Assembly (NCBI RefSeq): GCF_014356525.2
Contig: NC_052505.1
Span: forward strand, 55,211,610-55,275,609
Direction: 5' to 3'
DNA from: Nilaparvata lugens
Lineage: Eukaryota; Arthropoda; Insecta; Hemiptera; Delphacidae
Length of the DNA stretch: 64,000 nt
The notes under the pieces are model-generated. The model was not told the origin of the DNA. It worked only from the letters and a program-made list of their open reading frames with translations, and ran no database searches. Below, in pieces: positions 9,118 through 55,370 of this stretch; the first letter of the stretch is position 1; each line of letters begins with the position of its first letter. The position numbers and the translations under genes were made by a program.

Positions 9118-9274
9118 GACGCCAATCTACTATAAATCCCAACTTTCCCAATATTCCTGCGCTTTTTGGTGATATAGCAAATAGCTTTTTAGGTGTTGAC
9201 TCTATCACGTTCAAGTCTCTAATGAGCTTCTGTGAGCAAATGCTTGTGTGAGGTTTGAAAACAAGAAATCCCAT
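9098..9274 (-). CDS. Small intact ORF overlapping the capsid start
   Basis: ATG 9274-9272 to TAG 9100-9098 gives an uninterrupted 58-residue protein beginning MGFLVFKPHTSICSQKLIRD and containing KKLFAISPKSAGILGKLGF. It overlaps the capsid ATG by 20 bases in another frame, the tight packing usual for virus-like gene arrays. I do not recognise the family. Its intactness next to broken neighbours may be due to its short length. Confidence 0.4.
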   Translation of the reverse strand: MGFLVFKPHTSICSQKLIRDLNVIESTPKKLFAISPKSAGILGKLGFIVDWRHVQCSS

Positions 9275-9275
9275 T

Positions 9276-9995: not shown

Positions 9996-10010
9996 ACCAC
10001 AAATACTGGA

Positions 10011-10373
10011 TTACAACTGGTTTGCTAAAAACAAGAGCATGAGGTGCCCACAAATATCGGTATTTGATGGTTGCATGTACTCAACATTGTGAAAAATATT
10101 CACACCTGTTTCTTCTTCCCAATATTTATTTAATTCATGAGGTGGTTGTAAATTACCAATTGGATCAAAATAGTAAACATTTGATCCTCGTCTCTTATAA
10201 CCAACCCAGTGTGTGCCATGTCCAGATTGACTGTCTGAATTAACAATAAAATTCTTATTTTTTAGTATTCTATTAGGTAATGTATCTATCATGTATACAC
10301 CTTGAAGTAGAATTTGTAATAATTTACACCATTTAATTGGATCATGATTAAACAATTCGCCATTGATATTCAT
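10011..10373 (-). CDS. Adenain-like cysteine protease (Polinton PRO)
   Basis: Start ATG 10373-10371; 120 residues, uninterrupted. The C5/C48-type catalytic residues are visible: His in GHGTHWVGYKRRG, Asp in NVYYFDPIG, and the nucleophile Cys in SNTDICGHLMLLFL. In adenoviruses and Polintons this enzyme matures capsid proteins. It is shorter than adenovirus protease (about 200 residues) but similar to the compact Polinton forms. It begins about 5 bases after the stop of a small basic ORF, again virus-like packing. It is among the few structural-arm genes with an undamaged frame. Confidence 0.82.
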   Translation of the reverse strand: MNINGELFNHDPIKWCKLLQILLQGVYMIDTLPNRILKNKNFIVNSDSQSGHGTHWVGYKRRGSNVYYFDPIGNLQPPHELNKYWEEETGVNIFHNVEYMQPSNTDICGHLMLLFLANQL

Positions 10374-10378
10374 TTCTT

Positions 10379-10530
10379 CACCTTCTTTGTCTTTCTATGT
10401 TTTTTAACTCCTTTTTTACTTTTTTCTGTGGGGATAAACTCATACCATATAATGAGGGGAGGTTGGTGGGAATCAAAATATGACCACCCAAGATTGGAGG
10501 GTATGGCTTCGAATAGTAACCTCTACCTGC
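10379..10530 (-). CDS. Possible small basic protein between PLA2 and protease
   Basis: A short open stretch reads AGRGYYSKPYPPILGGHILI and ends in a Lys/Arg-rich tail (SPQKKVKKELKNIERQRR) with a TGA just ahead of the protease ATG. The only in-frame ATG lies midway, so the N-terminus may be lost or supplied by splicing. A small, basic, glycine/tyrosine-rich protein fits a core or minor virion component, but I cannot assign a family. Confidence 0.35.
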
Positions 10531-10536
10531 AATATG

Positions 10537-11046
10537 CTATTTCAACTGAGTAATAGCTTTTTTCCTCAGTGAGTTGCTATGAGTTTCCCTAACACTTGTG
10601 CTCTTCTTCTTCTTTCTCAAACCACTTCTAAACACTGCTTCAGCTTTCATCATGTTTGTTACAAGATAACTAAGTGCTTTTTCACTGAGAGATGTTTTTG
10701 GGTTTTTGAATATCTCCCATGCAGCATTTGCGAGAGCTCTGTCAGCAATCACTTGCAACTTATTATCACTATTTTGAGTGTATGCTATATCATGTACCTC
10801 ACAGGCTTTATATAATGAATTTATACCTTGATCACCTCTCTTCAACCCTTGATTAACCTCTGTTCCTGGCCCACAATACTGGTAGCCCCCTGGCAAATGA
10901 ATTTCAGGTGATGCATTTATTAATTTATCCAAAATAGCTGATGTAATGTCCCCTGCAGTACCCGCTACACCTTTGACAATTTTGCTAGCAGTACTCAAGA
11001 TTCTTCTCCCGCATTTCCTGGAAGATAACTTTCTTCTACATACCAT
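10537..11046 (-). CDS. Phospholipase A2-like protein of the parvovirus VP1 type
   Basis: Start ATG 11046-11044; 169 residues, uninterrupted. A basic N-terminus is followed by a hydrophobic stretch with SKIVKGVAGTAGDI, then the calcium loop in LPGGYQYCGPGTEVNQG and the catalytic His-Asp in YKACEVHDIAYTQ. The tail is very basic (SGLRKKKKSTSV). This arrangement matches the secreted-type PLA2 fold used by parvoviruses to leave the endosome, and PLA2-like genes also occur in adintovirus-type elements. It leads the leftward block PLA2, small basic ORF, protease, penton, capsid. No stop or frameshift is visible. Confidence 0.85.
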   Translation of the reverse strand: MVCRRKLSSRKCGRRILSTASKIVKGVAGTAGDITSAILDKLINASPEIHLPGGYQYCGPGTEVNQGLKRGDQGINSLYKACEVHDIAYTQNSDNKLQVIADRALANAAWEIFKNPKTSLSEKALSYLVTNMMKAEAVFRSGLRKKKKSTSVRETHSNSLRKKAITQLK

Positions 11047-11147
11047 TTTTCATTACCTTCCAACTCAATAGTTAAACATCGACTGAGGCTAATAAATCGA
11101 ACACTTAACCTTAATCTAGAGAAAAAGGAATTGTCTCATTAAGTGCT

Positions 11148-18038: not shown

Positions 18039-19939
18039 TTGCACCCCCCTTCCGGGGAAGGGTGGACATCCCCTTCCGCACTTCTAACCGCACTCTCTTT
18101 CTTTGACACCTTGTGAACTTTGGGTTTGTGTATGGCACTATCACTAGAACTCACTTGTTGGGTGGTGGTCACCTGGGGCAGAAGTGCAGGCGCCTCCTCG
18201 CCGGTCGGGGTGGGGGCGGTCTGACTGGTCAGCAGCCTCCAGGCCACCGCGCCGCCGGACAGTGCTATTACCATAGTGACCGCTGCTATAATGTAGTACC
18301 AGCAGGGAACCAGCTGGTCAGAAGACTCCTCCGCCTCCAACTCTCGTAGGGAGTTCATCAAGTGGTTGACCGTCACCTCTTCCACTCCACTCGTTCCAGG
18401 CCAAGCATGACCTTCTTGCAGACATCTCGCCAGCTGCAGGCGAATCTGGGAAGCCGAGAATCGACCCTCAGCCAATGACAGGGCCGCTAGGATGTCGATG
18501 GCCACTGGCCTTAGTCGCACCTCGGCTTGACCACCAAGGCTGGTTGGTGCAGGAATCTGATAAGAGGGGTGACTGAGTGTGCACCACTTTATCGCTCGCA
18601 TGGCTCCAGTGCCATGAAGGTGTAACTCGTCCACAGTCGTCTGCCCGCCGGTCTTGCATTGAGAGACGAATCATTTCTCCATTGACAGGCTATATATCCA
18701 GCTGTTATCGCTCCGACGCCATAGCCAGACATCAGGATGATCCTTAGTCAGCACAAGACGTGTGCAGTGCTGACGGGCGAGCGTGATCTCTCCCAGGAAC
18801 AAGAGGCTCAGACAGGATGGGTGGTGTCTGGCATAGAGTGGTGAAAATGCTGGACAAAGGGTGAGCGAGCCTACTTTGTTACACTGTTCAAGCATTGTTT
18901 CACTCAATGTGGTATAACGGTCTTTGTCCTTGCTGACAAATAGAATTGTAGAGTTGAGTTGGTAACGCACACTCACATTAGTGTGGAAGTCCTTGACGGG
19001 GAGTTCAAGTGCCTGAAACATATCAAATCTGCGTCCAATTGAAGAGAGGGGTACAGTCAACAATAGTTTAATCACTTCACCACTGGTTACCGCACAAGTC
19101 TTTATCAACTGGTAAAACGCCATCACTTGAGAAATGTCTGTTCCAAAAACTAATTCTAAGCCACTAGGTAAACTTGACCGAACCTTTAACAATATATTTC
19201 TTAATTCTAAAGGCGATAATAAATTCATACTCAATTTGCCGCTAGCAGCATCATTTGGACATTGTAAAATTTTTCTTTAATCTATTAGGGCCTCAAAAGT
19301 AGCAAGTTCCAATTCTTCTAATGCAGTAGAAGTATCCATATATACATATAGTAAGTTCTCTACTTCAATAGTTTTCTTATTAGTTGTCAAAAATTGATTC
19401 ATGAGAACAGTTAGATTACCATAGATTTCTTGTGAAACCCTTCCTAACTCTTGATGATTACGCTCCGTTTTCCGACTGAGTTCTCTAGTAACGGTCAAGT
19501 GTTCTCCTTCAATGTGTATTAAACTGGCAGTTTTCAATTTCGTCAACTCTCAGCTGTGTTGTACCTTCTCTAAGTCCTCACTCTCGGCTACTCCAAATAA
19601 AATATGAAGGATCTTCCCCCCCAAGTTTATTAATCCTCTACGGCTCCGTCCATAGTACAGATCGGTTAACGTTTGTACAATATCTTTTAATTCATTTTCC
19701 ATTGTTATTATTCGTTGAAGTACTTTATGTTGAACTCCTAGAGCAGGGAGTTTCTCGGCCGCTTGTGCTAGCAGGAACGCTGTATCCTCTGTTCATCCCT
19801 GAAGTTCGGCTACTTCTTGTTGAGTTTCAGTGAGATTGATTTCGATGACGATGGTCCACTTCTCTCCGGTAATAAGCGCCTCTCCCATACTTTCGAACCA
19901 TACTCCTTCCTTATTAGCTTCGTGTGGAGAGATAGACAT
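18026..19939 (-). pseudogene. env: Env, baculovirus F-like fusion protein (errantivirus type)
   Basis: One reading frame of about 638 codons from ATG 19939-19937, just after a splice acceptor (GGTTACAG) at 19947-19945, to a stop inside the LTR edge at 18026. Landmarks are a furin-type basic site ending RSRR with a following hydrophobic Gly-rich fusion-peptide-like segment near 19560-19640, a Cys-rich ectodomain with LxPxxL-type and WIYSL blocks (18671-19234), a C-terminal membrane helix WYYIIAAVTMVIALSGG (about 18250-18300), and a basic tail. Four premature stops lie in frame: 19793-19795, 19550-19552, 19277-19279 and 18668-18670. Errantivirus Env is made from a spliced mRNA and mediates membrane fusion. 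This copy is non-functional. Confidence 0.85.
18039..18056 (-). promoter_or_regulatory. Polypurine tract
   Basis: On the minus strand GGAAGGGGGGTGCAA directly precedes the LTR's TGTAAATGGG. It is the expected site for plus-strand DNA priming and lies inside the last env codons. Confidence 0.6.
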
Positions 19940-19947
19940 CACACCTG

Positions 19948-22315
19948 TAACCAATTATATTCGATGTTCTATTCTGTCAGAGTTATCTTTATTCCACCCT
20001 TATTCCACCATAATTCCACCACACCTCCACAATTTTTATGGGTTGACAATTTGGTTACCCATTCATCCAATTCCAATCAATTTCAATTAAAAACCGGTTT
20101 TAATGTCAAGTGCCAATTGAAGTTAACAATTTCTCTGAACAACGGTGACTCAATGTTCATTGTTGGCCTAGGAACGCTGATTCAAAGAGGCTGTCACAAG
20201 GTAGAACCGTTGACCTACAATGTAAACATTGGACTCCATTGTTATAGTTACAACTGTCGCCGCTAGATTGCGTAAGATTCCAATTGCAGAAATTAATCAA
20301 TTTTTCTCTAATATTTTTCTCACGGCTGTCGTTCGTTTACCCGCGTGAACATGGTTGCCGTTTCTATTGAGTTGTGGTAAACAATGGGTATTAGCTTAGG
20401 CGTGTTTGTCACTTTTCTTCTATCATGTAATTCGATACAATAAATTACCTTCCATCACAATAATTCAACCCATAGTCTTGAACAAATCATTTTCCTAGAT
20501 TATAGGCCTGCTTGTAAACCTTTCTATCAATCATAATAATATTATTCTATAGTCTCTATCGTCGTTTATTGGTTTTATTCACATTTGTATTGAAGTACAT
20601 TTATCACAACAAAAATTTTACTACTAAAATTCTTTCACCACTAAATCCTTACTTAAATAAATTCGAACGTTTCTTCTTCTCTTCTAGAACGTGGGCCTAT
20701 TCCAGGGAAGTTCAACCAGGGCTCGGTTTGAGTACTACCGCCTACTCAATTCAACGATAGCCCTTACCCCTTATGGTTTTCACTAACCAACTGCTCATCC
20801 CTTACCGCAACAGCAATTATACGTTCACGAATCAGATACAATAAATTTCGTAATATTTCCATTAAAAATATTCATAAACTATTCCACAAAATTCAATGAC
20901 AATTCAATATTATACAGTTGCAATTATTCCCAACACGACTTACAAGGTAACAATTTAACAATAACTAAACATCAATCCTCATCAATCTAATCTCAATTAT
21001 AAAATTACAATCAATTACTGCATCTCTGTATAGAAATTAATTTTTATACATCATAGTCACGTAATCAAAAACAATTCTTTCTAACACATTGAACTACAAT
21101 AATCACGAGATCATCAATATCATCATAACATAATACAACAGTTATTATTTCATAGTCTTGGACTCAATCGAATTAATCGTTATCAATCAAAACATCAAAT
21201 AACCATAAGCACTCGTTATCGAATTACTCTTCAAGTACAACATAAATCAATAATTCATCGAAATCATATTCTCATCGGAATCATAATTATTGAATCGCAA
21301 TTGAAGATACATTACAATAATTCGTCATTTCATAAAAATTATACACAGTAGTTGTCAGCAATCGATAATAGCATTAATTTCCGTAAGCAGCATATGAGTC
21401 AGCAACTCCATTTATCACTCATCATTTATCGCACCTTATTCATAATCACATGTAAATCAACAAAATAACGTAGCAGTTCTAATCTATAATCGTCTAGTAT
21501 TCATCAACATCATAATAACGTCATCGTCTTATCAATATTTGTTCATCTTCATACTAATCGTAAATCGTTTTTTTTTTTTTTGTAAACTAATTCCTTAATA
21601 GTTTGTTTGACGGATCTACCTTCATCTCATTTCGAAGCGATTAGCAAGCCATTGTGTATGCCTTGACATCTTATAACAATAGGCGGCTGTCCGTCTTCTT
21701 TCCTTCATTTCATTTCGCTTGTGAATAGTGTATTGATCTATCACACTCATTCATTCTCGATAATAATATTATGAAATTTAATATTATTCATGGTCTTTTT
21801 TTTTTCATCTCGATACAATAGCTTCTTACTCGAAATTCCTTTCCTATTTCGTTCTACTCCAATTATCACGTAATTATACTCCATTCAATCGTTACATCAA
21901 ATACGTTACATTCATTAATTTTCTCGTACGAATTCATTCAACACTCTTTCCTTAAATACGGTTTTCCTACACTAATTTTCGAACGCAGTTTTCTGACATG
22001 CTCGGGTCATAATTTTCTCTCGTTTTCCAAATATCGTTCGCCTACCCTAATTTTGAACGCAGTTTTATGACATGCTCGGGTCATATTCTCCTTATTCCCT
22101 ATACTCTAGGTGATTGTGCGTGCTCTCGATCGCAGAGGATATGGTGATCTCTGCTCCAGATTTACACGCTCGGTTGGTTCAAAAGTGAGGTCCCGTGAAT
22201 CGTCATCAAAAACGTTATCTGGTGAAGAGGGCTCCATCACTTCCACGTTTCCTTCTTCTGATCCCATCTCGTCATTGTTGTCGACGCAATTTCGTGATTC
22301 CTCAACATATTCATC
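19948..22315 (-). other. Intergenic region between pol and env
   Basis: About 2.3 kb of AT-rich, non-coding sequence with many ATCAAT/AATCAT repeats and a T12 run near 21570. It is long for an errantivirus pol-env spacer. It would be removed when the env mRNA is spliced. I see no gene in it. Confidence 0.55.
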
Positions 22316-25300
22316 TTAGTTGCTATCTGGCTGTTGATAAGGTTCTTCTTCTCCATCTGTTTCATTCATGTATTCGTCATTGTCCATTATATCGTTCTCG
22401 ACCTCCTTGTCTGCTTTTGAGTCATTGGTACTTTGTTTCTCCTTGTTACTAGATTTCAGCCTATTTACGTGCACTACGACTTGTCTCCCATCTGGTAGTT
22501 GTAATGCATAGTTCACTATCGATAACTTTTTAACAATGATAAATGGTCCATTCCAGGGTTGGTGGAATTTGGTCGTCTCTCCCGGTTTGACAGCAGGGTT
22601 GTATAGATAGACTGATTCTCCAACTGCAAATTCTCTCAGCTTTCTCCCTTTATTGATTATCTTGGATCTTTTCTCAGCAGATTGCACGTATTTTCCGTGG
22701 GTTGTTCTGTAGGCTTGTGACAATTTATTCCACAGTTTGATTAGATGGTCGCCCACGGCCGTCTCCTGGACTTCCCTTGGGATTACACAGGTCCCTGGAA
22801 ATATCATCTCTCTTCCGTGTAGCAGATAATAAGGGGAGTATCCAGTCGATGCATGAGGGATAGATCTATAGGCGGCTAATACATACGGTAGTCATTTATC
22901 CCAGTCAGCTCCATCCCTCTGCACATAGTGTGCAATTGATTCATTCAGTGTCCTATGCAAGTGCTCCAATCTACCATTTCCTTCGGGATGGTATGCTGTC
23001 TTCCTCAACTTCTTAACTTCTCATAGTTTACACACCTCGGTGAACAGTTGGGAAAGAAAGTTGCGGCCTTGATCGCTAAGAAGTCGTCCTGGTACGCCAT
23101 GTCGGGTGATAACGTGGGTAACAAACACACGTGCGATCGTCTCTGCTGTCTGGTCGCGAACTGGCACGGCCTCTGTGTAGCGGGTGAAATGATCAATGAA
23201 ACTAACGTAGTATCTATTGCCAGCTTGTGTTACAGGCAATGGACCGACTACATCGACACTTATCAGTTCAAACGGATATCCAGGTTCCTCTGCAGTTTGT
23301 AAGGGTGCTTTTGACATGATGGGTGTTTTCCTTCGAGCACACTCATGACATCTCATTACGAAATTTTTTACATCTTCGTCTATACGTGGCCAATAGTAAT
23401 GTTGTTTTATCAAGCGGCTTGTTCGTTCTCGTCCTGGATGGCCCGCCCATGGCACGCTGTGGTTGAGCTCGATTATATTCATTCGCATAGATTGGGGTAT
23501 AGCTAATTTCCACTGTCTGTTCTCTTCTATATTTTTAGTCCACCAGATTATTCCGTTTTCGCATTGACCCTCTCCGGTTTGTAGAATCTTATTACACCAA
23601 TCATCCCCTTTTTGTTCTTTGACTATTTCTTCCTCTGATAATTCACAGTTTTCAATCGTCATTACAGCTCGACTAAGAGCATCACAATTTACATGTTTCT
23701 TCCCAGGTCGATGCACCACACTGTACTCGTATTCGGATAATCTTAAGGCCCACTGTGTCAACCGTGAAGAAGGATCTCTCAAACTCAGCATCCATTTTAG
23801 GGCTGCATGGTCAGTGATAAGAGTAAACTTTCTTCCCAGGAGATAACATCTGAACTGGGTGGTTACTGCCCATATTATGGCTAAGAGCTCTCGTTCAGTT
23901 GTCGAATAGTTCCTTTTGGCTGTATTTAATTGTCTACTTGCATAGGCGATAGGTCGTTCCTCTCCATCGAAGTCTTGTGATAGTATTGCACCAACAGCCA
24001 CCCCTGATGCATCGGTTGCTAATGTGAATGGTTTTGTAAAATCAGGAAAGGCTAGCACTCGGTCTGAACATAGGGTCTGTTTCAAGCTGTTGAATGCCTG
24101 TTCTTGTATAACTCCCCAATCGAATTTCACTTCCTTCTTTGTTAATTGAGTCATTGGTCGTGCTATTTCCGCAAGGTCTGGTACAAATCTCCTGTAGTAG
24201 CCAGCTAGACCTAGAAATCCTCTCACTTCTTTCACGGTTTTTGGAGATGGGAATTTTGCTACTGCTTCTATTTTCGACGGGTCAGGTTTCACTCCTTCTG
24301 CTGATACTACATGTCCCAAATATTGTACTTCCTCCTTTCCAAAATGACATTTTTCTAAATTGGCTTTCAAGTTTACATTCTCCAAAATTCCAAGTACTTG
24401 GTCTATCCGTTGGCATGCTCTTGAATTGATCTACTGGCTATCACTACGTCATCTAAATATACGAAACATCCAGTACCTTTTACGGAGGCAAGAATATTGT
24501 CCATTAGTCTCTGAAACGTTGCTGGTGCTCCACATAGCCCGAATGCCATACGTTGGTATTCAAAATGCCCGCCTACCGTTGTGAACGCCGTCTTTTCTTG
24601 ATCTTCCTTAGCAATTTTAATCTGGTGGTATCCAGCAGTCAAATCGAGTGTAGAGAAATAACAGCAGTTTCCCAGATGTTCTAAAGTTTCGTTGATTAGA
24701 GGCAATGGATAGGCATCTGTTTTCGTAACTTCATTAAGGGCACAAAAATCAGTACAAAAACGGTATTTTATTGTTCCGTCAGTGGATTTTTTCTTGACTA
24801 AAACAACTGGCGCACTATACGGACTCATAGATGGTACGATTACTCCCTTGTTAAGCATATCCGAAAGGTGTTCCTCTACTACTGGTCTTAAATGAAAGGG
24901 GACTCTGTACGGTCTTTTCCTGATGGGTCTGTCGTCTGTGGTTGGAATCTTATGTTCTACAGGAACATTACAACCCTCCGCATCTGGTTCACCAAACACT
25001 GCCCAATATTTCATTAGAACAGGCTCCAGGATTGCTCTCTCTCTTCCTGGAAGGTGAGCTATTTTTTCTTTTATCTTCTGACGAATCTCTTGGCTATCAC
25101 TTTCATCCTGTGATATGGTTGCTATAAATGGTCCAATATTTTCATGATCCAATAATTCACCGGTTCCAATTACTGTCTTCTTCTGTAATTTTATAGCGTT
25201 CTCTGTCACGTTAACTATGGAAGTGGTTACACATCCTTTCTTAGGTATGACTAGAGCTCTGCTAACATAGAAACCCGGTATCTGATGGTGAGGTTCAATT

Positions 25301-25854
25301 AATATCGGATTACCGTGTAAATCCCCATCAATTGACAATTTGATCAACAACTCCGACTGTGGTGGTATCACCAAGAATTCGGAATTCCTCAATTCATAAG
25401 TGAATTCGTCATAAACATGGTTTTTTGAAACTGTACCATGCGCGGTGACGTCACAGTTTGAAGCTCTCCCTATGCAGGCTACAGAGGGAATTTCATTTCG
25501 GCCGCATTTCCGTGGTGACTGGGAATTTCCCTGCGGGTGGGAAATTTTCATAGGTTGCGGAACATTTGATGTCGGCTGTTGGTTAATCTGGATGCGCGCG
25601 CAAGGCTGACCCTCCTCCTCCTTCATCTCAACTCGTCTTGTTACATTCTTGTTCTCCTCCTTCTTCTTCTTGTCGGCCTCTCTGCTTGGTGTGGTATTTC
25701 GTTTCTCGCTATCAATTCTATCTCCTTGTGCTCCGTCGTTTGTACGCTCCACTCCCTGGTCACTGTTATCATTGTCTATTGGTCTCTCTTTCTTCTCTCT
25801 ATCCATTCCACTTCGTTCCACGATATGCACTGCGCTGACTTGCGATCCTTGTCA
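22316..25854 (-). pseudogene. pol: Pol: RT, RNase H, integrase
   Basis: After an acidic/basic linker (25830-25400), RT carries VVLVKKKSTDGTIKYRFCTD, DLTAGYHQIKI, AFGLCGAPATFQRLMDN and the FVYLDDVVIAS box. A shift between 24403 and 24385 breaks it. RNase H follows (FTLATDASGVAVGAIL, STTERELLAIIWAV, LITDHAALKWM). The integrase zinc part has HPGRERTSRLIKQHYYWPR...CHECARRK; its core has Asp in SVDVVGPL and LLSDQGRNF and a Glu in NGRLEHLHRTL. Stops lie at 23021-23023 and near 22890; the C-terminal chromo-like end (YNPAVKPGETTKFHQPWNGP) is at 22807-22450. A TGA at 25852-25854 separates it from protease in the same frame. Confidence 0.92.
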
Positions 25855-26252
25855 CTTATCGCCTATTCCATTATACTCATCTTCTTCTGGTGCGACTCCA
25901 CAACATGTTATTCGTTTTCTTTTCACGTCTATCACTGCTTCAACTCTGTCTAGGAAATCAGCTCCTAAAATGCCGTCAGCTTGTATTGCGATTCCAGCTA
26001 TAGAGAAAGGGTGAACAAAATTCAAGTGTGCTATCCGACAATTTAAATATTGTATGCCGAATACCCCCAGTGTAGCGCCGGTCACTCCCCGTGATCTTGA
26101 GTGTTTTTTCGATAAATCCACGCCTTCTATAGGATACTTCAGGATGGATATCTCGGCTCCGGTGTCCACTAGCAGGGTTCTCGTCTCTCCCTCTATGCGT
26201 AGTCTGACGTAGATGTTGTTCGTCTTGCCTGCTGCAATACAAGGTATCCAAT
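25852..26252 (-). pseudogene. pro: Aspartic protease (pro)
   Basis: Retroviral-type protease with active site LLVDTGAEISIL and the second signature DGILGADFLDRVEAVIDV. It shares a frame with pol but is separated from it by a TGA at 25852-25854. The nucleocapsid frame upstream is offset by one base. Confidence 0.88.
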
Positions 26253-26627
26253 CTACTGGTCCATTTTGGGTCTGGCCGGCATCTGGACCTCTGATACCTG
26301 GCCGTTCCCATTTGGGTGGTTTCGGATATTATCATTTTTTGCTCCCTGTCCACGAGTCGGGCAGTTGAATGAGAGGTGATCGGGCGCCCCGCACGAGAAA
26401 CAAAATTTCGGCCTTGCTTGTCCTCCATCTCGACGTCCACCTCTCGATGTTCGGTTCGGCTCACTCGGATTCGTTCTCTTTCTCCTTGTGGCGCACTCTC
26501 TCCCATAATGACCGAACCCTCCGCACTCGTAGCAGGTGTCTTTCTGGTTGCCTCGTTTCGGAGTAGACTCGTCTCTACGTTCAACTTTTCGACCTTGTAT
26601 TAAATTGACATTGACATCATTTTTCAT
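26253..26627 (-). pseudogene. Nucleocapsid with two CCHC zinc knuckles
   Basis: Two retroviral zinc knuckles, CYECGGFGHYGREC and CFSCGAPDHLSFNC, in an Arg/Gly-rich context. The ATG at 26627-26625 overlaps the capsid stop TGA (26626-26624), and the protease frame downstream is shifted again. Both shifts go in the -1 direction. Whether they were programmed frameshifts or are decay cannot be told from one copy. Confidence 0.83.
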
Positions 26628-27373
26628 ATATATTCAGTCACTATTGGGAGAATATTATTACTGGAGTTAATTGAGGGTTGTGCCTCTGTCGTTCGCTCTG
26701 CTATTCCGATCGCCTCCTCCAAGTCCTTGGGTGGGAATACTTGTAGCGTGGTCGCTGCTGGGCCCTTGATCCCTCGTACGAAGGCAGCCAGGAGAGTGCG
26801 TTGCAGCTGGGCACGCGTCCACTCAGCCTCTTGTCGGTTGCTAGGAGCTGGCATCGCCTTCAATCCCATTTCTCGGCATCTATCAGCAAATGCACGTGCG
26901 CTCTCTCCTACATTTTGCTGTACCGTACTCAGTGATAACAGCCAGCGTTCGGGGTCAATGGATCTTTCAAATCTTTGGAGAAGTAGCTTCCTAAAATCTT
27001 CAAAAGTTGTTGATTCGAGTGTAAGCTCTGGGTGGGCTTCAATACATGATGCAGCCGCTCCCATCAATTTCAAACGACAAATCAATTTTTTGTCTTGATC
27101 GTCCCAACTTCCCGTTTGAGCTACGAGGTCGATGTTTCGTAGAAACTCTCGTACATTTTGGGTGCTTGATTCACCTGAGAAATTTTTAATGAGTGATTGT
27201 AATCCTAAATCTTTTCGCTTCGCCACCTGCCTAGTGTTACTGCTACTTCCGGAAGCCTGATTTCCGGCAGCGTCCCGGTTGATTTGTTCTGCCAATTCCC
27301 TGTTCTGTTGTCTTAATCTTGCTAGCTCCTCCCTCTCCGTGGTCATCTCATTCTGATCTTCCGCATCTGACAT
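26624..27373 (-). CDS. gag: Gag capsid-like protein
   Basis: Start ATG 27373-27371; 249 residues. A short coiled coil (REELARLRQQNRELAEQI) precedes a Ty3/Gypsy Gag capsid domain with FSGESSTQNVREFLRNIDL, KLICRLKLMGAAASCIEAHP, DFRKLLLQRFERSIDPERWL, and ARAFADRCREMGLKAMPAP. It is intact but ends before the zinc knuckles, which lie in the next frame. Confidence 0.88.
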   Translation of the reverse strand: MSDAEDQNEMTTEREELARLRQQNRELAEQINRDAAGNQASGSSSNTRQVAKRKDLGLQSLIKNFSGESSTQNVREFLRNIDLVAQTGSWDDQDKKLICRLKLMGAAASCIEAHPELTLESTTFEDFRKLLLQRFERSIDPERWLLSLSTVQQNVGESARAFADRCREMGLKAMPAPSNRQEAEWTRAQLQRTLLAAFVRGIKGPAATTLQVFPPKDLEEAIGIAERTTEAQPSINSSNNILPIVTEYI

Positions 27374-27677
27374 GATTGTGGATAGGTGGTAACTATTCTC
27401 TATATCTATCCACTCCGAATTAAAGGGTGAATTTGAAGGGTCACTTGAATTGAATCAGAGTTAATTAACTCGAATTAATTCTCTTAAATCAATCAATCAA
27501 TCAAATAGTCAAAAATTCCTAGCAGTGCATCAATCATTTCAATAAGCATTGAGAACACATCGTGTGCGTAATGGTTGAAACTTGGCATAAGGTCAACTAT
27601 GATTGATACAAGCTCTACAATGAATTCGGCGACATTGTATGATAATAATCTACGACCATTAGGCATTTTTGCAGCCT
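27374..27677 (-). other. Gag leader
   Basis: Non-coding 5' leader between the primer-binding site and the gag ATG. I see no gene. Confidence 0.6.
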
Positions 27678-29868: not shown

Positions 29869-30378
29869 GTGATAAAAAAAAATTTCAAATTTATTCAAGT
29901 AAGTTATAATACATTCTGGTTCATACATGAATCTACAATAAATTACAGTACAACAGCCAATTATGCAACAAATTTCACATATTATGAAAACTTATTAATT
30001 ACAATGAAGATTGAATGCAACATTAGAATATTGATAATATAGTATTGTAATATAACTACATAAATCAGCGGTGTTTCAACAATGAATAAATGATAATTTC
30101 AATGAATAAATATACACCCCACTATATATTATATGTGTTGGGGTATAAGTAATTAGTTGCTTATTGCGTGTAATAATTACTATTTACAAACTTCATTCAC
30201 TGATATGGGATTAAAGTTTTTTATAATAAAATTAGTAAAAATGTATAATACAAACAAACAAAATTATGGGATTAGTAAATAAATATTAATGTTCTATTAA
30301 GGATAATAATAAGAAAGGTTTTTTTTAGAAAAATTAAAAACAGTAAAGAGTGGAATGAAGAATAAATAGTTTCAATAT
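29869..30378 (-). other. 3' UTR of LINE D
   Basis: AT-rich, no coding frame. An AATAAA on the minus strand lies about 20 bases from the left edge. The plus-strand frame at 29794-30042 crosses from the PolB fragment into this UTR and is not a gene. Confidence 0.55.
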
Positions 30379-32101
30379 TTACAGTCTAACTAAATTTTCA
30401 CAATTTTCCACTCCAATATCAACCAACCAGGGAAATAAACTTTCCTTGAACCTGTGTTTATTGAATTCTTCCCTTATGTAACTTGGTATTGAATTATAAA
30501 TTTTTGGTCCCAAATATGTGTAGTTTCTTTGCCCAAATGTAGTGTTCATCCTTGGTACTATTGAATACGTGTTTCTCTGCCTTGTTTGATGGTTATGATC
30601 TGCCAGTCTTATGTGTTCGTTGTTTCTCCTCATTCGCGTGATGATAGCCTGGATGTAGAGTTGTCTTACACTCAGTACTTTACTGTCCTTGAAAAGAATG
30701 TTCGTGGGGAATTGATTCTCCTTGAAACCTATTATTTTTAGTATTCGTTTTTGAAGTTTATAGAGAGGTTCAACATGTGTAAAATTCATATAATTATGAT
30801 AATTATAACGTATCTTAAAATTGATTGCACTAAAGAAAAATAAACAGTTTTTAATGTCTCATAGTTGAGGATTTTATGGAGTTGATAGAATTTGTAGAGA
30901 AGCTTCCTGACTCGGGTAATTGATAGATTAATGTGCTTGTCCCATTTGAATTTGTTGTCCACTATTGTTCCTAAATATTTTATTTCATTGACTTGTTGAA
31001 TTGAAGGGCAATCACACGGGTTGTTGGTGCTTCCACAGTGATGCAGGATTATTGAAGAATCCGGTGGTCTCGCTCGTTCTGTCAGAGAAAAGGCTAAGAA
31101 TTTCGTTTTTGTTGCATTTACTGTAAGCAAATTTTCTCTTAACCATTTATCGACTTCCATCAATTCTTCCTGTGCCAGATTAAAAACTTCCTCCCAGGTG
31201 TTTCCTTCAAATAGTATACATAGTATATTACTCTTCCTCTTATCTTAATCGAACATAGCTCATTTGCGTATGCCAAATACAGAATTGGCCCAAGAACTGT
31301 TCCTTGGGGAATCAACTTTGACTTTAACTTTGACTTTTTGACGCCGGTCACAGAGGTATGATCTAAACCATGCTAGAGGAACTCCTCTAATTCCCATGGC
31401 TTCTAATTTCTTCAGCAGCAAACTGTGATTAACAGTGTCAAAAGCTTTTGCTAGGTGCAGGAACACTGCTGCACATTTTTTGTTATTTTCTAGCTTATCT
31501 GTGACAAAATTTGACAATTCTAATACCGCATCTTCTGTACTCCTCCCCTCACGAAAACCAAATTGATTCCTAGATAGTAAGTTGTTTTTTCCATTTAATT
31601 CACAAGACGTTTCTTTACCAGTTTTTCCAAAATCTTAGAAATATTGCTTATAAGTGAAATAGGCCTGTAATTGGTGGCATTTGTTTTGTCGCCTCCTTTA
31701 TGTAATGGTCTAACACATGTCTCTTTCCTAGCTTTTGGAAAAATTCCTTTTGACAGACTTGAATTAAATATGTGAATTTATGGTTTTACAATTACATTTT
31801 TCATCGACTTCAATGTTCTATTATTGATTCCATCAAGTCCTGGAGCACTGTCATTTCGCAAACTACTAACAGCTTCAAGAAGCTCATCTTCAGTTACTGG
31901 GTGAAAGTAGATGTGGTGTAGAGTTCTTGTAACAGGTTTATATTGGGATATGATTTGGTCTAGTGGTTTTCTCGAGGAATCTATTATTGTCTCCGCCATT
32001 TCTTCACCTACATTTGTGAAAAAGTTATTTATGTGGTTGAGCACAGTTTCTGGATTTTCCTTTAGATTGAAAATCCTATCATCTATTTTAATAGCATTCA
32101 A
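30379..32101 (-). pseudogene. LINE D ORF2, reverse transcriptase
   Basis: RT blocks appear in order across several frames: LLEAVSSLRNDSAPGLDGIN, TNYRPISLISNISKILEKLV, FLHLAKAFDTVNHSLLLKKL, and PQGTVLGPILYLAYANELCS. Where the catalytic YADD should follow, the sequence reads VIYYVYYLKE, so a short deletion has removed the aspartates. KTKFLAF and EIKYLGTIVDNKFKWDKHIN follow, then the terminal domain (QRNTYSIVPRMNTTFGQRNY). A tandem AAAGTCAAAGTTAAAGTC duplication lies near 31318-31340. A TAA at 32102-32104 separates it from the endonuclease in the same frame. Confidence 0.88.
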
Positions 32102-33334
32102 TTACATTTTTGTTTTTGATTTAGAGTCAGTAGCATCTTTGATTACTTTCCACATTTTTTTATTATCCTTTCCAGCTTCATACAATTTCTCTCTATAGTA
32201 TTGGTCCTTTGTTTCATGAATTAAAGCTGTGAGTGTATTCCTATACCGACGATAGAAGTTGGTTAAGTTAATGTTGTTTGGGTCTTCCTTTCTTCTTTTG
32301 TTGAGTAGATTTCTGGTTCTTATTGCTGCTACTATACCTCTGGTGATCCATGGTTTGATGGGTTTGTACTTCTTCTGCCGCCGATGCTGCTTGATATTAT
32401 TTTGTATATGTTGTCTCAGAGTTGATAAGAAGGTGTCATAAGATGTATCTGGATTATTATCTTCTAAAACATGAATCCACTTCTCATTCAGTAGTTCGTT
32501 CTTCGAGCTATTAATGTCTATTTTCTTGTTTATTTTATGTGTTCCAGTTTCATTTGCACTATTTCTTGAAATATGTTGCACTCCTAGAATTGTGGTGAAG
32601 TGGTCAGTTATTGTTGATTCATAAATGATTGGAAAAAGATTATCTCTGGAGTTGGTAGCAATGTGATCTATGCAAGAAGCAGTTTCTTTTGTAGTTCTGG
32701 TTGCTTGCTTAATGCAGAGTCTGAGCCCATGCTTGCTAAGAAGATCGCAGTAGTCATTCAATTGATGATGTGGACGAATTTGAAGGGTGTTAATATTCAT
32801 GTCTCCGGCACATATGACTTGTTGCCCTCTTAATTCATTCAGGATCGATTCTAAGTCACTCAGGAAATCTGTAATATCATTGAAGGACGGTGATCTGTAT
32901 ATTGCAAGGATGTTCCACTTTTTGTCTGCTGCATCCAACCGAATATGTAGGACATTTGCCTGGTTAATATGTAGCTCAACACATTTTACATTTATACTAT
33001 CTTCAACATAAACAACTACACCATCATTTTGTAATGTGTTGTTTATGGTGGAAAATACATCATATCCTCGAATGGACTGGAGTACAAATTCAGTCCTAAT
33101 CCAGCATTCGGTTAGAATAATAACATCAAAAGAAAAATTAATGTCGCACAATTGAATCATCAGCTCATCAAAATTCCTTCTGTTACTCCTTATATTGAGA
33201 CAGAAGATGCTCAAATCACAAGAACTCAATGCTGCACAAAGTTGTTGACTGTTGTTGATCACTTCATCGTTTATTTCTTCAAAATAATCAAGATCCTCGA
33301 AGCTGAGCAAATTTCATAAGTTGTTGTTACTCAT
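32102..33334 (-). CDS. LINE D ORF2, apurinic-like endonuclease
   Basis: Exonuclease-endonuclease-phosphatase domain with FCLNIRSNRRNFDEL (Asn), VIILTECWIR (Glu), GVVVYVEDSI, ICAGDMNINTL, ASCIDHIATNS and TITDHFTTIL (Asp-His). About 400 codons are open from 33310. ATG 33334-33332 lies in the same frame and overlaps the helicase stop, but a TGA at 33316-33314 intervenes. All key residues are present, unlike in the RT downstream. Confidence 0.9.
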
Positions 33335-34286
33335 TATTTAAACTCTCATTAATCCCTTCCATGTTTCTTTCATCCCAGCTTAAGAGAAACTCTTCACTAA
33401 CATCCTTTAGTTTTCGAATTAGGGTCAGCACTAAATCTTCTTGCCCTGTTGTGATATATCTGAAGGATTGTGTGTGTCTGCTCATTGCTACTATTACATG
33501 TTGTGTGCTGTTATATATTCCAAGTTGTATTTTATTGTTCCTTATCAGAACTTCATTCTCGTGAGTTAAGCCCTGTGCTTCATGAATTGTATGGACTTTA
33601 ATTGAAGGGTGAAGTTCTGATTGCAGCTCTTCTAGCACTGTTTTCTTCTCGAGCTGAGTGAATGTAAGAATCAGAGTGTTAGGTTCAAGTGGTCCAAGTT
33701 CTCCATTTGTTATTGGAGGTCTGACGGATAACAGGACCTCATTTTTCGTACCAATGTCCTGGTAGTAGCTGGAAAGGATGTAGCAGACGTCCATTGGACA
33801 CCTTCCAGTTACTGTTTGATGGATTCTCTTCTCACAGAGAGATGAAATGTGTGACCATTCAGCTGTTAATTTACTTCTCTCTATGTAAGGTATTTGGTTT
33901 GAATCTCCTAGCAGAATAATCTCAGAAGCACCAGCGAGAGATGAGACAAATCCCACGAAACCTGCATGCATTAATACTGCTTCATCTATGAAAACACGTT
34001 TGTACTGCTTTTTTGATCCGTTTATTATAAAAGATGAAACTGTTCTATAATCCTGTTTAATTATTATTTCATATTCATTTTTGTGAATTCTATTCACCTC
34101 TTGCCTGATTTTATTCATTCCAGCTCTTGTCTGACACAAAATGAGATCCTTACCTGGTGTATGTTGCTGAAGGATAAAGTGAGTTTTACCACATCCTGGA
34201 ACTCCATCCATCCAAGTTATTTTTGGCATCTTACAATTTGTTATGTCAACTTTTAGAATATTCTTCAGTAGCTCAGCATTCAGCAT
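33327..34286 (-). CDS. Superfamily 1 RNA-virus-type helicase embedded in LINE D
   Basis: Start ATG 34286-34284; 319 residues, no interruption. All SF1 viral-helicase motifs are readable in order: I, DGVPGCGKTHFI; Ia, KDLILCQTRAGMNKI; II, RVFIDEAVLMHAG; III, EIILLGDSNQIPYIE; IV, TGRCPMDVCYILSSYY; V, VHTIHEAQGLTHENEVLI; VI, HVIVAMSRHTQSFRYIT. These are typical of alphavirus-like (virga/kita/negevirus-type) replicase helicases rather than cellular Pif1 or UvrD. In viruses the domain unwinds RNA using NTP and has 5'-triphosphatase activity. It lies between ORF1 and ORF2 on the same strand, ending 7 bases past the ORF2 ATG. Its open frame contrasts with the broken RT in the same copy. Confidence 0.93.
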   Translation of the reverse strand: MLNAELLKNILKVDITNCKMPKITWMDGVPGCGKTHFILQQHTPGKDLILCQTRAGMNKIRQEVNRIHKNEYEIIIKQDYRTVSSFIINGSKKQYKRVFIDEAVLMHAGFVGFVSSLAGASEIILLGDSNQIPYIERSKLTAEWSHISSLCEKRIHQTVTGRCPMDVCYILSSYYQDIGTKNEVLLSVRPPITNGELGPLEPNTLILTFTQLEKKTVLEELQSELHPSIKVHTIHEAQGLTHENEVLIRNNKIQLGIYNSTQHVIVAMSRHTQSFRYITTGQEDLVLTLIRKLKDVSEEFLLSWDERNMEGINESLNNE

Positions 34287-35113
34287 GATTCAGCATGGGT
34301 GTCTCTACTGACTAGAATATACTTTTCCTTAGTTAAGAATGACTTTGTTGTTTCATTGTAGGGTACATATTTTCCTTCATTTTCAAAACAGAAGCCCATT
34401 CGATATGTAGTGGATGTCGGCCACAGGAAAGTCTTAAGTCAATTGTTGTAGATGTTCATCTCGTTTCGCCTTATCTCTTGAATACATGCTGCTGAAGAAG
34501 AGATATTACTATTCAGTGATGATAGTACTCCCCTATATAAGACCGTATTCAGAACATCATACTGTTCAATAAAGTTCCTGAGTTCTATCATACTGTTCAA
34601 ATGAGCAAAGAGAATAGAATCATACGGTAGGTATCCTTTTGGACAATCTTCAGAGCCATCGTTTTCATGTGGTATATCCAAGAACTTTAGATTGTTTATT
34701 CCTCTGTAATAGAATACATAATTCAGGTTTTTAGTTTTAATTACTAAACTTGAAATGTCCAAGCATGTAAACTCGGAGTCAATATCAAAAGAATCTATTC
34801 CAATCGTGATGTTATATTTATTTATCGATGCATATTCGTCTATTACCAGTAAGAGGTCATGGATACCTAATTGAGCCTCATTGTTATTATTTTGCGCTAA
34901 TATCAATGTCAATGAATTTTTAACAAGATGAAAACGAATTGAGCTTTTATTTACGTTCCGTAAATAAACAGTAGGTAAGCTATTGTATTCATCTTGACTC
35001 AGCGTTTTCTTCTTGATTGAATGTGCAACGCCTTCTGAAATACCTGAACAATTTTTATTCCAGCGAGCTAATGATAAATTAAAATCTGTATATTGACCAA
35101 AGCTGAAAATCAA
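34287..35113 (-). pseudogene. Region ahead of the helicase, possibly virus-derived
   Basis: An open frame from 35113 to a TGA at 34441-34439, continuing in frame to another TGA just before the helicase ATG. It reads NSLPTVYLRNVNKSSIRFHL, GIHDLLLVIDEYASINKYNI and, near the helicase, YRMGFCFENEGKYVPYN. The last stretch resembles the segment that precedes the helicase domain in alphavirus-like replicases, so more than the helicase may have been captured. The rest matches nothing I know. A 10-base direct duplication (CATGCTGAAT) at 34275-34295 coincides with the frame change into the helicase. Confidence 0.5.
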
Positions 35114-35277
35114 AGACGTCCCACTTTTCGCTTAATGTTTTATTAATTCTGGTTTTTTAATAGATGATAGGAGATCTTGAATATCTATTTTTATATTTGA
35201 TGTTGTGAATTTATTTGATGATTTTGAGCTGGAAATTCTATTTTTAATCTTTTCAAGCACTTCCATAATTTGTTCGA

Positions 35278-36406
35278 TCAATTGATTGTTGCAATGCTTT
35301 CACATAGCTGGGACACTTTAGATAGTTTACTTTGTGGTCTAGGGTTTATCAGCTCTTTTGCAGTTAAAACATACTGGAGGTTTATCGATTGAAGGGCAGG
35401 TTTTGATGTTGTGTCCTGTGATGGAGCAATGGCCACAGATATCTTCTTCCTTTTTACAATGTTTTGTGATGTGCCCATAGACTTGACATTTATAGCACCT
35501 TTGCACTGCATGGTAATCATCAACTCTACATGATGTCATATCTATAAATATTTTTTTCTTATTAATTATTGCTTTCCTTATTTCGGGTTCACATTCTACT
35601 ACCCAATGCACGGAATCCTTGTTTTTCGGCCCTAATTTGAATGATGGCTTGCAACCTTCTTCAAATTTTTGTTTTTCTATTCCTGAATTGACAACATTTT
35701 TGTTATATATTTCTTCAGTTACCTCTTTGTTAGTGAGATCAGATGGAACATCATAAACAATTATCCTGGGTTTTTTATTTTGGGGCTCAGTTATCTTGAT
35801 TTGATCATTATTTACAGCTTTATTCTTCAATAATTTCTTTTTGTCCTCTAGAGAATCCAGAACAATGAGTAAACCTCCTCCTCTAACGGGTACTGTCTTT
35901 TTTATTCTAATGTTATCCTTTCTCGCAATGTTGGTTTTCAGTGTGCCTTTTATTTTTTCACTGTCTTGTTTCTCATTACCGGTGGAATTTGAGGGTTTAA
36001 TTAAGACTACCTGTTCTTTTGGAAGGATTTTCCTGACTTGATTATTGGACTGGGGATCGCTTGGAGTAGCTTTTTCTGGTAGTTGTATCATGTCTGCATA
36101 AGTAATAGGCCTGTCTTCATTTTTAATTTCCTGAACAGATTTGCTTATGTCCTGTAATGAGTCATGAATTTTCGGATGCCCCAAAGAATCACTTATTTTG
36201 CTTATAGTAGCTGCTCTCGTTTCTACTTTCACGATTACCAATGCTAATTTTTGAACTAATTCTAAGAAATTATCATATTCGGCTCTGGAAACCTTTTTTT
36301 TTTTAAATTCTGACAAAGCCCATTCCTTGAATTCCGAAGAGATACTCTTCATGTTCATTGTGTCTGTGTTGAATTCACTCAGCAATAATTGTTCAACATT
36401 TCCCAT
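35278..36406 (-). pseudogene. LINE D ORF1, gag-like protein with zinc knuckles
   Basis: Start ATG 36406-36404, with a TAG upstream in frame. About 350 residues: a helical N-terminus (EFKEWALSEFKKKKVSRAEY), a Lys-rich linker, an RRM-like section (GGGLLIVLDSLEDKKKLLKN; KPRIIVYDVPSDLTNKEV) and three CCHC knuckles (CYKCQVYGHITKHC, CGHCSITGHNIKTC, then CFNCKRADKP where the third is cut). The cut at 35339 is a frame change; the continuation lies in the frame ending at 35278. This is the standard nucleic-acid chaperone ORF1 of Jockey/I/R1-like LINEs. Confidence 0.85.
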
Positions 36407-36734
36407 TTTACCTGGTTGTTCTCGTACTTTGAGTCCTTGGTTCCCTGGAAAGTTATCCTCTTCTTCCTCCTCCTCGAATTGCGGGATCAGTCCATCCAGT
36501 GGGTTGGTTGGTGACCCAATCTATCCGACGACAATGACGTATGAACATAGCTGCTGTATGGTTATGTTCCAGTGACTCACTTATTGATGAACGATGATTG
36601 TTTTGAAAACTATCACTACGGTGAAACTAAACTACTAAGATGTTTACTCTACGAGCGCTACTGTAAGACTGATGAGGTCTGAATGTTTTGGAAAACTATG
36701 AACAGTTGAACGGACATTTTATGTTAGCGGTTAG
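36407..36734 (-). other. LINE D 5' UTR and junction with PolB
   Basis: No gene. The LINE's 5' end lies somewhere between about 36540 and 36730. To the right the plus strand is PolB again. I could not find a clear target duplication matching the left flank at 29869. Confidence 0.5.
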
Positions 36735-38424
36735 GAAAATTTTTAGTTTGTTCAATAACTTTGTTCCATTTGGTAGTGGGTGAGTGTTGAAGAAGATTTA
36801 CTCGCTTGATGTAAACGTGATTAGATATAATCCAATATACACAAGCAGTTTCATTCAAACACCCCAGTTTATCAAAAATGAGAAATGTGTTATCAATGTC
36901 AGAAATCTTTCTGATGAAAAGTGTTCTCAATGGAGTTTTTACAGAAACAGACACAAAGGTATGCCATCATGCACATGAAAATGGAAAGTTTATATGTGTG
37001 CTGCTCATGTCTTGTGTAATTTAAATACTCGAACTAATGATACGATTAGCTGTCACTTCCATAATTTTAGCTGATTTGACAGCAATTTCATTCTAGAAGC
37101 TCTTGGAAAATGTAAAAGAAAAATTCCTGTATCTCCAATACATCAGAAAGATGTCTGACATTGACAGTAACATTGGGAAATTGAGTTCTCAGATTCATAT
37201 AAATTCATAAATGAATCCTTGGAAGTATTAGTGAGCAACTTGGTAGATAGTACAAATATGGAATCAATGTTCAAACATCTGCTTTCAGTATTTAATGACC
37301 CTGATCTCGAACATAGGCAACTCTTGTTAAAGAAAGGAGAATATCCCTATTCATAAATATCTTGTCCTGAAAAATTCGCAGAGACTTCTCTTCTACCGAT
37401 GGAATGTTTCTATAATGATTGATACACCCCTCTCCCCCAAAGAATATGAGCATACACAAAGAGTGTTCTCAAAATTCAAGTCAAAATCTCTCAGTGAGTA
37501 TCATGATTTCTATCTGTGCCTAGACATCATGCTATTGGTTGAAGTTTCCGAGGAAATGAGATCAACATTTTTTTAGCTCAATGGCCTCAATGTTAATTTT
37601 TTTTTTTGCTTGCTTATTTCACTTGGAATTGTATGTTAAAGTACACCAAAGTTGAACTCCAATTGATAACTGATCCTGATATCCATCTAATTTTTGAATC
37701 AGGAATGTGCTGTGGTGTTTCATTTATTGGTAAGCATTATTGTGATGCCAATAACAAACACATCCTTGACACATATGACCCCGCGAAACTAAGTTACTAT
37801 TTGCTTCATATAGATTGTAATTCTTTGCATGCCCACTCTATGAATCAATTCTTACCTTATGGAAATTTCAAGTACCTCTCAGAGAAAGAAACCCATGCTC
37901 TTGACTTTACAGATTTGGAGAGTGAGTCAGAAACTTGTTATGTTATTGAATGAGATCTCAAGTACCCCTAGGAGTTACATGATATGCATGCCAATTTCCC
38001 TCTCGCTCAACTCCTTCAAATTTCCCCTATCGAATTGTTCTCCGAGTACGAAACCAATGAGAACAGTCAAATTCTGACTAAAAAACTCATGAACACACTT
38101 TTTGATCAAGAGAGGTACATTGTTCATTACCTGAATTTGAAGCTGTACCTTCAACTCGGATTTCAATTAACAAAACTACATCGTATCATTAGCTTTTCCC
38201 AATCACCTTGGTTGAGGAACTACATTGAGTTCAATACCCATAATAGGCAAACCATAAAAAATAAATTTGAAATCTCTTTCTTCAAATGTATGTCAAATTT
38301 ATGTTATGGAAAATCAATCCAGGGGAATCAACAGGAATGTAATGTTCAAATTATCACAGATGCCAAGCGTCTAGATAAGACGATTAGTACATTTCAAATC
38401 CTCTATGTAAATGCTGGCAGATAA
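36735..38424 (+). pseudogene. Polinton protein-primed DNA polymerase B, central part
   Basis: Readable blocks in changing frames: KKIYSLDVNVIRYNP and SSFIQTPQFIKNEKCVINV (36784-36930); an exonuclease-III-like SEYHDFYLCLDIMLLVEV (37490-37540); WNCMLKYTKVELQLITDPDI and HLIFESGMCCGVSF (37640-37730); polymerase motif A region YLLHIDCNSLHAHSMNQFLP (37800-37860); IVHYLNLKLYLQLGFQL (38120-38170); and motif B FFKCMSNLCYGKSI (38280-38320). A TGA replaces the Trp codon after GSG near 36782. Motif C (the DTD box) is absent because the gene ends at 38424, where the transposase-bearing stretch begins. Confidence 0.8.
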
Positions 38425-53674: not shown

Positions 53675-55370
53675 ACAATATATGACCATTTCGTTTCACA
53701 TTCTAACCAACACAACGAAGTTTTCATTGCTAATCATATCGATGATATTGGAAAGCAGGTTACAAACTTAGATTCACCAATTACTGATAAATTTCAATCC
53801 CATCCAATCTCAGAAGAAGACACTTCCAGAGCAATTCAACGTATTCATAGTTATGCTAAGGGTGTAGACAAAATTCCTATAAAATTTATCAAGAAGATGT
53901 TATTTGCTGTTTTACCAACCATTACATACATTTTCAACAAGACACTTGAAGAAGGCATTTTCCCTGAAAACTGGAAGTTTGCTCTGGTTCGCCCTCTAAA
54001 TAGAGTTCCATCACCCAATAAAGTTGAGGATTCTAGACCAATCAGTATTTTACCTGCATTGTCCAAAGTGCTAGAAAGACTCATTCATGCTCAAGTTGTA
54101 AAATTTCTAGACAACAATAGTAAGCTCCAAAGCTTCCAATCAGGCTTTAGAAAATTCCATTCAACTGAGACACCTCTGCTTCGTGTCACTGATGATAAAA
54201 GGTTAGCTATGGACCAAAGAAAATGCACCATCCTCACCCTATTTGATTTTTCCAAAGCATTCGATACTGTTGATCATACAGTCCTTCTGAATAAGTTGGC
54301 TATTCTTGGTTTCAGTCACAACTCGTTAGTTTGGTTTGAATCCTATCTATTAGGTAGGAAACAATGTGTATCTGTCGGTGACAAAAAGTCCACTTGGAAA
54401 AACGTTATGCATGGAGTACCACAAGGTTCAATTTTAGGCCCTCTCCTCTTCACTCTGTATGCTAATGACCTTTCTTCCATTATCAAATTCTCCAGTTACC
54501 ATACTTATGCAGACGACCTTCAAATTTATTTAAGCTGTCCCATAACAAAAATTGATGAAACAGTTGGAATAATGAATCAGGATATCAATTCGATAAGGGA
54601 ATGGACAAAGGAAAATGGCCATAAGCTTTATCCCATCAAAAACAACCCATTATAATTGGATATTCTTGTCTTATAAACAATATTGACCTTGAATAGATTC
54701 ACAGAATTAGTGTAGATGGTAATGACATCCCTTACTGTAGCTCAGTTAATTTTAAATATAGGCATTATTATGAATAATACTCTTGACTGGTCAGAACAAG
54801 TGAACAAAACTTGTAAAAATGTATTCTCATCCATGCATGCATTGAAGAAAATGCACGATATTCTCCCTAGAAACATTAAATTATTATTGCTTCAATCTCT
54901 CATCTTCCCAAATTTAATGTATTGTAATTCTGTTCTTAACGATATGCAAGTCATTCTGAATGATAAACTAGAGCGTTGCCAAAATTATTGTCTATGTTTC
55001 GTCTACTCTCTCCAACGCCTTGATCATATCACCCCAGCCCACATTGCTAGTTCAACATTAAAGCTTCCCGATCAAAGGCTTTTTCGAATAGTCAAGCTTG
55101 TTAGTGATATCTTGAAATACGGTAATCAGAACTATTTTAAAGATGATTTCAAATTTGTCTCTGAAGGTAGAAGGATAGATGCTTCACATATCACATACTA
55201 GAACTGGAGAAAGTACTTTAAGGATACCCAATCATCGAACTTCTATTTTCACAAAATCCTTCTTAGTCATTGCCTGTCGTGCATGGAATGCACTTCCTGT
55301 TTCTATCAAGTCCATCGAGAGCCAAGCGAGCTTCATCCTGACTTTGAAAAACATCTTTTGGAACAAATGA
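53675..55370 (+). pseudogene. LINE A ORF2, reverse transcriptase
   Basis: RT with FNKTLEEGIFPENWKFALVR, DSRPISILPALSKVLERLIH, FQSGFRKFHSTETPLLRVTD, TLFDFSKAFDTVDHTVLLNK, HGVPQGSILGPLLFTLYAND and an intact HTYADDLQIYLSCP box (54500-54540), in a 252-codon open stretch (53897-54655). The terminal domain follows in two other frames (NKTCKNVFSSMHALKKMHDI; NHRTSIFTKSFLVIACRAWN). Frameshifts near 54655, 54716 and 55190. Similarity to the minus copy at 62.9-64 kb is very high. Confidence 0.9.

Follow-up and report, generated by a model that had tools for sequence, protein, structure and literature searches.

A viral-type helicase as a separate cistron of Jockey-like LINEs in Nilaparvata lugens

The window analysed here is a 64,000-nucleotide stretch of the genome of the delphacid Nilaparvata lugens (assembly GCF_014356525.2, contig NC_052505.1, positions 55,211,610 to 55,275,609, forward strand). 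On its minus strand, at 29874..36671, lies a long interspersed nuclear element (LINE) with three genes: ORF1 (gag), a helicase gene that we term ORFh, and ORF2 (endonuclease and reverse transcriptase, RT). An earlier note on this DNA, made from the letters alone, had put a helicase-bearing LINE at 33327..36406; such an element is there, but its true span runs from 36671 down to about 29874. The 5' end is marked by CAGTCTTACAG at 36671, and the 3' end by AATAAA and a short TTTGAA/T tail near 29874. Copies L031, L032 and L034 share the 5' end and copies L031, L033 and L034 the 3' part; over 6831 alignment columns the window copy is 97.3% identical to L034. No target-site duplication was established for it. 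This copy, dead and with a full-length 5' end, belongs to a Jockey-like LINE family with three overlapping cistrons.

ORF1 occupies 35253..36520 and encodes a gag protein with CCHC zinc knuckles, which were read by eye and for which the Pfam scan gave no match. Its frame is broken at about 35341, leaving 393 open codons (35339-36520), and the product is about 96% identical to gag frames of 422 amino acids (aa) in other copies; the stop codon overlaps the start of ORFh. ORF2, at 30379..33334, has several frame breaks, and open frames of 995-999 aa are present in some other copies. In the Pfam scan of ORF2, RVT_1 scored above the cut-off and the endonuclease models PF14529 and PF03372 just below it. 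The endonuclease/RT pieces span 33313 down to 30379, and they and gag flank the helicase on the same strand.

ORFh itself lies at 33327..35266. Its helicase core, at 33327..34289, is an intact frame of 320 residues, which the earlier note had given as an open frame of 319 residues. The frame is real, but it is not a complete gene and forms the second half of a broken ORF: when all three frames are read, it continues upstream, past two stops and a shift of frame, as far as an ATG at 35266, and the cistron measures 644 aa in other copies. With the whole broken ORFh as query we recovered 22 proteins of 633-669 aa, 38-46% identical over 92-100% of its length, every one of which carries PF01443; a search with the middle frame only had hidden these relatives of about 650 aa through its length filter. 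Alignment with the 22 full-length proteins assigns 34439..35131 to the N-terminal part of ORFh, which comprises an extra domain followed by the first portion of the helicase N-terminal domain.

The core frame matches Viral_helicase1 (PF01443, E 4.9e-39, residues 27-280) and, in the PDB, the replicase of tomato mosaic virus (chains of 3wrx and 3vkw, E about 6e-38). These matches, far beyond chance, bear out the earlier identification of a superfamily 1 (SF1) viral helicase between a zinc-knuckle ORF1 and an endonuclease/RT ORF2 on the same strand. The window frame retains all 32 alignment columns that show no variation among eight other helicases (columns with at least seven of these present); a private change, R161G, falls inside a conserved T-R-R-C stretch. 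In a structure model of ORFh the best structural match covers model residues 226-662, the match list is filled by helicase, and identity to the tomato mosaic virus helicase (3vkw) is 26% over the structural alignment. A fold is claimed for the part from about residue 226 onward; a single-sequence model of the middle frame (pLDDT 34.8) was useless. The sequence motifs, the N-terminal domain and the core fold are those of a tobamovirus-type SF1 helicase. As modelled, ORFh is thus an extra N-terminal domain joined to a complete tobamovirus-type helicase fragment (N-terminal domain plus SF1 core). It resembles the tomato mosaic virus and virga-like replicases in these helicase parts, in fold and in sequence, and differs from them in lacking methyltransferase and polymerase and in having the extra domain. 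Two other identities were rejected. A Helitron-type (Pif1) helicase does not fit, PF01443 being the best Pfam family and no Pif1 model appearing up to E 1; nor does an intact RNA-virus replicase or endogenous virus, since the neighbours are gag and endonuclease-RT and the scanned frames gave no Pfam match to methyltransferase or RNA-dependent RNA polymerase. Scans of viral contigs with the helicase, a four-sequence profile and the ORFh profile yielded no confirmed relative.

The host assembly (1.085 Gb, 6870 contigs) was searched with the helicase, and at least 125 scored matches (of 1015 candidates) were found in two LINE families, 94 at 73-100% identity (family 1, that of the window) and 31 at 54-56% (family 2). 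We also sought a helicase-free sister family through gag; the third family found in this way has an ORFh of its own. The first 477 residues of the family-3 ORFh gave 91 rows, in which some copies count as two pieces: 52 at 64-100% (family 3) and 39 at 51-53% (family 1). Between families 1 and 2 protein identity is 54% in gag, 50% in ORFh and 41% in the first part of ORF2; family 3 differs from family 1 to a similar degree (gag 48%, endonuclease 51%, ORFh 51-53%).

Gene order was followed from both sides of the helicase. Among the family-1 matches, which this test covered, 73 of 94 have an endonuclease within 1.5 kb downstream on the same strand, 49 of them at the exact 16-nt spacing of the window, and at least three of the remaining 21 (L002, L004 and L006) do hold an endonuclease piece. 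Conversely, a helicase lies upstream in 73 of 105 endonuclease rows; of the other 32, two were fetched, and both begin to align with L034 at a point within the helicase and look 5'-truncated. Gag was paired with all 31 helicase rows of family 2 and with 58 of the 94 of family 1: a helicase lay downstream of 36 among the first 39 of 109 gag matches, and one of the three unpaired rows, C6:17916582, is followed by an ORFh match after all; of 11 rows taken as family 2, 10 had a helicase downstream. The full order gag, ORFh N-terminal part, helicase, endonuclease is kept at 33 of 36 fetched loci, window included; as L031-L034 extend copies already represented by L002, L006, L016 and L022, this amounts to 29 of 32 distinct copies. 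The three exceptions (L005, L009 and L029) have no gag within the 1.5 kb examined. It might be supposed that an endogenous viral element landed by chance in a single LINE copy, as the window copy is dead and the window is rich in other transposon pieces. The abundance of helicase copies across the genome, their conserved order and the same junctions in three families leave such a one-off chimera with practically no credibility, and the earlier proposal that the helicase is a stable, captured part of the LINE stands.

These junctions are precise. In copies read from the host genome the 422-aa gag is followed by ORFh from its ATG and then by ORF2. The ORFh ATG sits in the final gag codons, giving a 14-nt overlap, and the ORF2 ATG sits within the end of ORFh, giving an 8-nt overlap (33327..33334 in the window). 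Among 30 family-1 loci, window included, the exact motifs are present at 25 for gag/ORFh and at 29 for ORFh/ORF2. Both lengths recur in copies read from families 2 and 3, the 8-nt overlap in one read copy per family. Eleven of the 22 database ORFh proteins start with MG, while in P0012 an MG occurs at an internal methionine; judged from the proteins, this is as expected if their ATG also overlies a gag NYG stretch. Two copies from different families, L033 and L035, each seem to repeat in tandem at least several hundred bases where gag ends and ORFh starts.

Our literature searches on LINE helicases gave two founding papers (PMC4686597 and PMC5563155) and a 2019 opinion paper (PMC6338049). In the TRAS elements of Lepidoptera (R1 clade), an SF1 helicase (SF1H) is found at the C-terminus of ORF2, separated from the LINE part by more than 300 aa of no known similarity (Lazareva et al. 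2015, PMC4686597). Jockey-like LINEs with SF1H were described in Hemiptera and Orthoptera, with dozens of copies in N. lugens (Morozov, Lazareva and Solovyev 2017, PMC5563155). A LINE with a viral helicase, as described in the earlier note, is therefore not new, such elements having been in print since 2015 and 2017. Our element agrees with the published Jockey-like kind in having a full SF1H with the full motif set, upstream of and overlapping the endonuclease-RT ORF2. It differs from the account in the parts of that paper considered here, figures and supplements aside, in which the helicase ORF is ORF1 and no separate gag cistron, ORFh N-terminal domain or gag/ORFh overlap is mentioned; the helicase/ORF2 overlap is given there as 2 nt, and we count 8 nt. 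The abstract of the 2017 paper speaks of helicase sequences "integrated into ORF1", which would make gag and helicase one fused ORF1 protein. We regard such a fusion as very improbable: in the copies read, which come from all three families, gag closes at its own stop and ORFh opens at an ATG in a different frame, and the same paper calls the printed N. lugens helicase ORF single-domain. Relative to that account, the three-cistron layout with its exact overlaps and the extra N-terminal domain of ORFh appear to be new.

The window copy is dead. It agrees with L034 at 98.0% of aligned positions, the two being set apart by 135 substitutions and 11 indel events, and gag, ORFh and ORF2 are all broken. 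ORF2 carries seven frame-breaking indels, and the RT catalytic box, which reads FADD in L034, is lost through 14 nt missing at 31227, as the earlier note had observed. The same note took the intact helicase frame as a sign of recent selection, and this is not supported. The helicase stretch is free of indels, for which the chance is 0.22 given nine frame-breaking indels in the coding part. Compared with 29 other copies, the window helicase has 16 private substitutions, 12 nonsynonymous and 4 synonymous, where the neutral expectation for the synonymous share is 28.9%, and 16 neutral hits would leave no stop with a probability of 0.55. The window copy thus gives no sign of selection. Relative-rate counts are mixed, with 34 window against 12 P0001 changes when P0002 is the outgroup and about equal numbers with P0003-P0005. 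Singletons among the other 29 copies are 8 synonymous and 7 nonsynonymous, a hint of purifying selection that we do not use, the copies having been picked by protein identity. Conservation of the helicase is visible between families: for families 1 and 2, pN is 0.28 and pS 0.74, a rough ratio of 0.11, which near saturation of synonymous sites can be read only as dN/dS well below 1. The corresponding pN and pS values are 0.37 and 0.78 for the ORFh N-terminal part, 0.27 and 0.85 for gag, and 0.41 and 0.82 for the first ORF2 part.

One database protein bears on the origin of the ORFh front domain. P0034 is an unnamed protein of 1027 aa in which an RNase H is followed by a helicase, and from its sequence it looks like a protein of a TRAS-like element. 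The ORFh profile aligns to it from profile column 228 on (E 6.7e-50). The front part by itself scores 28.3 against P0034 over 161 columns, compared with 13.8 for the reversed stretch and 13.0 +- 2.1 (maximum 18.6) for 100 shuffles of it; twelve other proteins, five of them the replicases P0036-P0040, taken whole, and the rest represented by their upstream parts, reach at most 16.4, and three shuffles of each up to 18.4. In an HMM search with the front part P0034 ranked first, at 7.8 bits (E 0.018), with other fetched proteins at 2.3 or less and 300 shuffles at 1.0 or less. Against homology, hhalign gives a probability of 12% at 12% identity, and a single sequence is involved. From these scores we consider it probable that the ORFh front domain is homologous to the region before the helicase in P0034.

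In a helicase tree of 40 rows, the TRAS-like and ORFh helicases fall together on one side of a branch with support 99/97, and ORFh helicases alone group at 75/87, with the position of P0003 left unsettled. This tree included the replicases P0036-P0040, four of which bear the names of viruses from fungi or grapevine samples, omitted the partial proteins P0008, P0010 and P0011, and was built without the nearest published viruses; in an earlier tree a motif cut had excluded P0008 and P0036-P0040, and a length cut the short proteins. P0001-P0003 and P0013-P0033 are labelled LINE by kinship, from the protein alone. Our element and the TRAS LINEs share a virga/tobamovirus-type SF1H and, in one TRAS-like protein, an apparently homologous region before it; they differ in its position, a separate cistron ahead of ORF2 here and the ORF2 C-terminus past the spacer there. 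The likeness of the front domains means that the published captures may be one travelling module. ORFh, some 650 aa of orphan N-terminal domain, helicase N-terminal domain and SF1 core, would then have been captured once from a virus lineage and passed between two distant LINE clades, serving as a third, stop-start-coupled cistron in Jockey-like elements and as a C-terminal ORF2 extension in TRAS-like ones, where its front half would have been filed as a spacer without known similarity. We think this somewhat unlikely. If true, it would replace the published view that the TRAS and Jockey helicases are independent in origin (PMC5563155), and the probable shared N-terminal domain offers a concrete test of single against repeated capture.

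Taken jointly, a three-cistron Jockey-like LINE family, an ORFh as described, overlaps of the same lengths in three families and a viral origin of the helicase are very probable. The genome-wide copies and the junctions confirm that the helicase of a viral replicase can persist in a LINE as a gene of its own. The helicase would have been acquired from an arthropod virga-like RNA virus. A single RNA probably yields all three proteins, ORFh and ORF2 being started by stop-start reinitiation where the cistrons overlap, and the overlaps provide a simple system for asking how one transposon RNA gives three proteins. Several points weigh against this picture, besides the saturation described above. 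The name Jockey is taken over from Morozov et al. (PMC5563155); viral origin is argued from fold and sequence kinship, not from a well-sampled tree; the overlaps are the sole indication of reinitiation; and helicase activity is predicted from the retained catalytic motifs. In at least five family-3 copies the ORFh match breaks at one and the same place, into residues 1-250 and 238-475 (for example C15:95867047-95868470, C2:67591193-67592610 and C10:14889440-14890857), which looks like one broken ORFh inherited by several copies, and the family-3 copy L040 (C8:39378000-39385500) has lost the helicase core. ORFh need not, therefore, be intact in every copy that spreads. The L040 deletion also removes the start of the endonuclease and fuses the front part of ORFh in frame to ORF2, in an open frame of 1071 aa.

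As to what ORFh does for the element, it retains its catalytic motifs, forms a cistron of its own and is present in three families. On these grounds we favour, tentatively, an ATP-driven helicase that would act in the gag ribonucleoprotein on the RNA of the element itself, removing structure or duplexes ahead of reverse transcription. The suggestion of the earlier note, help in unwinding the template RNA, is possible. A nearly as likely alternative is that ORFh persists chiefly because it suppresses RNA silencing, blocking siRNA or piRNA control of the element rather than aiding reverse transcription. Tobamovirus helicases are reported as silencing suppressors, and a Plutella TRAS helicase moderately raised the movement of a suppressor-deficient plant virus (Lazareva et al. 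2015, PMC4686597; Morozov et al. 2017, PMC5563155); a separate protein not fused to RT would fit this role as well. The suppressor assay was, however, made in plants with the helicase of another LINE, and its authors do not regard it as unequivocal (PMC4686597). A benefit other than these two is unlikely.

Several other elements are found in the window. The minus strand at 7918-11049 encodes a double jelly-roll capsid (PF21738, E 2.6e-51), a phospholipase A2 (PF08398) and a weak adenovirus-type protease match (PF00770) below cut-off, which we take to be the remnant of an adintovirus/Maverick-like element. Also on the minus strand, 18674-27454 holds a Ty3/gypsy-type element whose gag, RT, RNase H and integrase lie at about 23-27 kb of the window and, beyond these genes, a Baculo_F envelope piece at 18674-19276; the element is perhaps errantivirus-like. 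Other LINE-type RT pieces were identified by Pfam at 3160-5022 (minus), 53675-54652 (plus) and 60437-61291 (minus), and, from their likeness to the RT pieces of the helicase-bearing LINE, at 126-995 and 63600-63791. Two plus-strand frames at 37597-38421, for neither of which Pfam gave a match, resemble a family B DNA polymerase by eye, and a FLYWCH zinc-finger frame (E 4.2e-07) is present at 6256-6795 on the minus strand.

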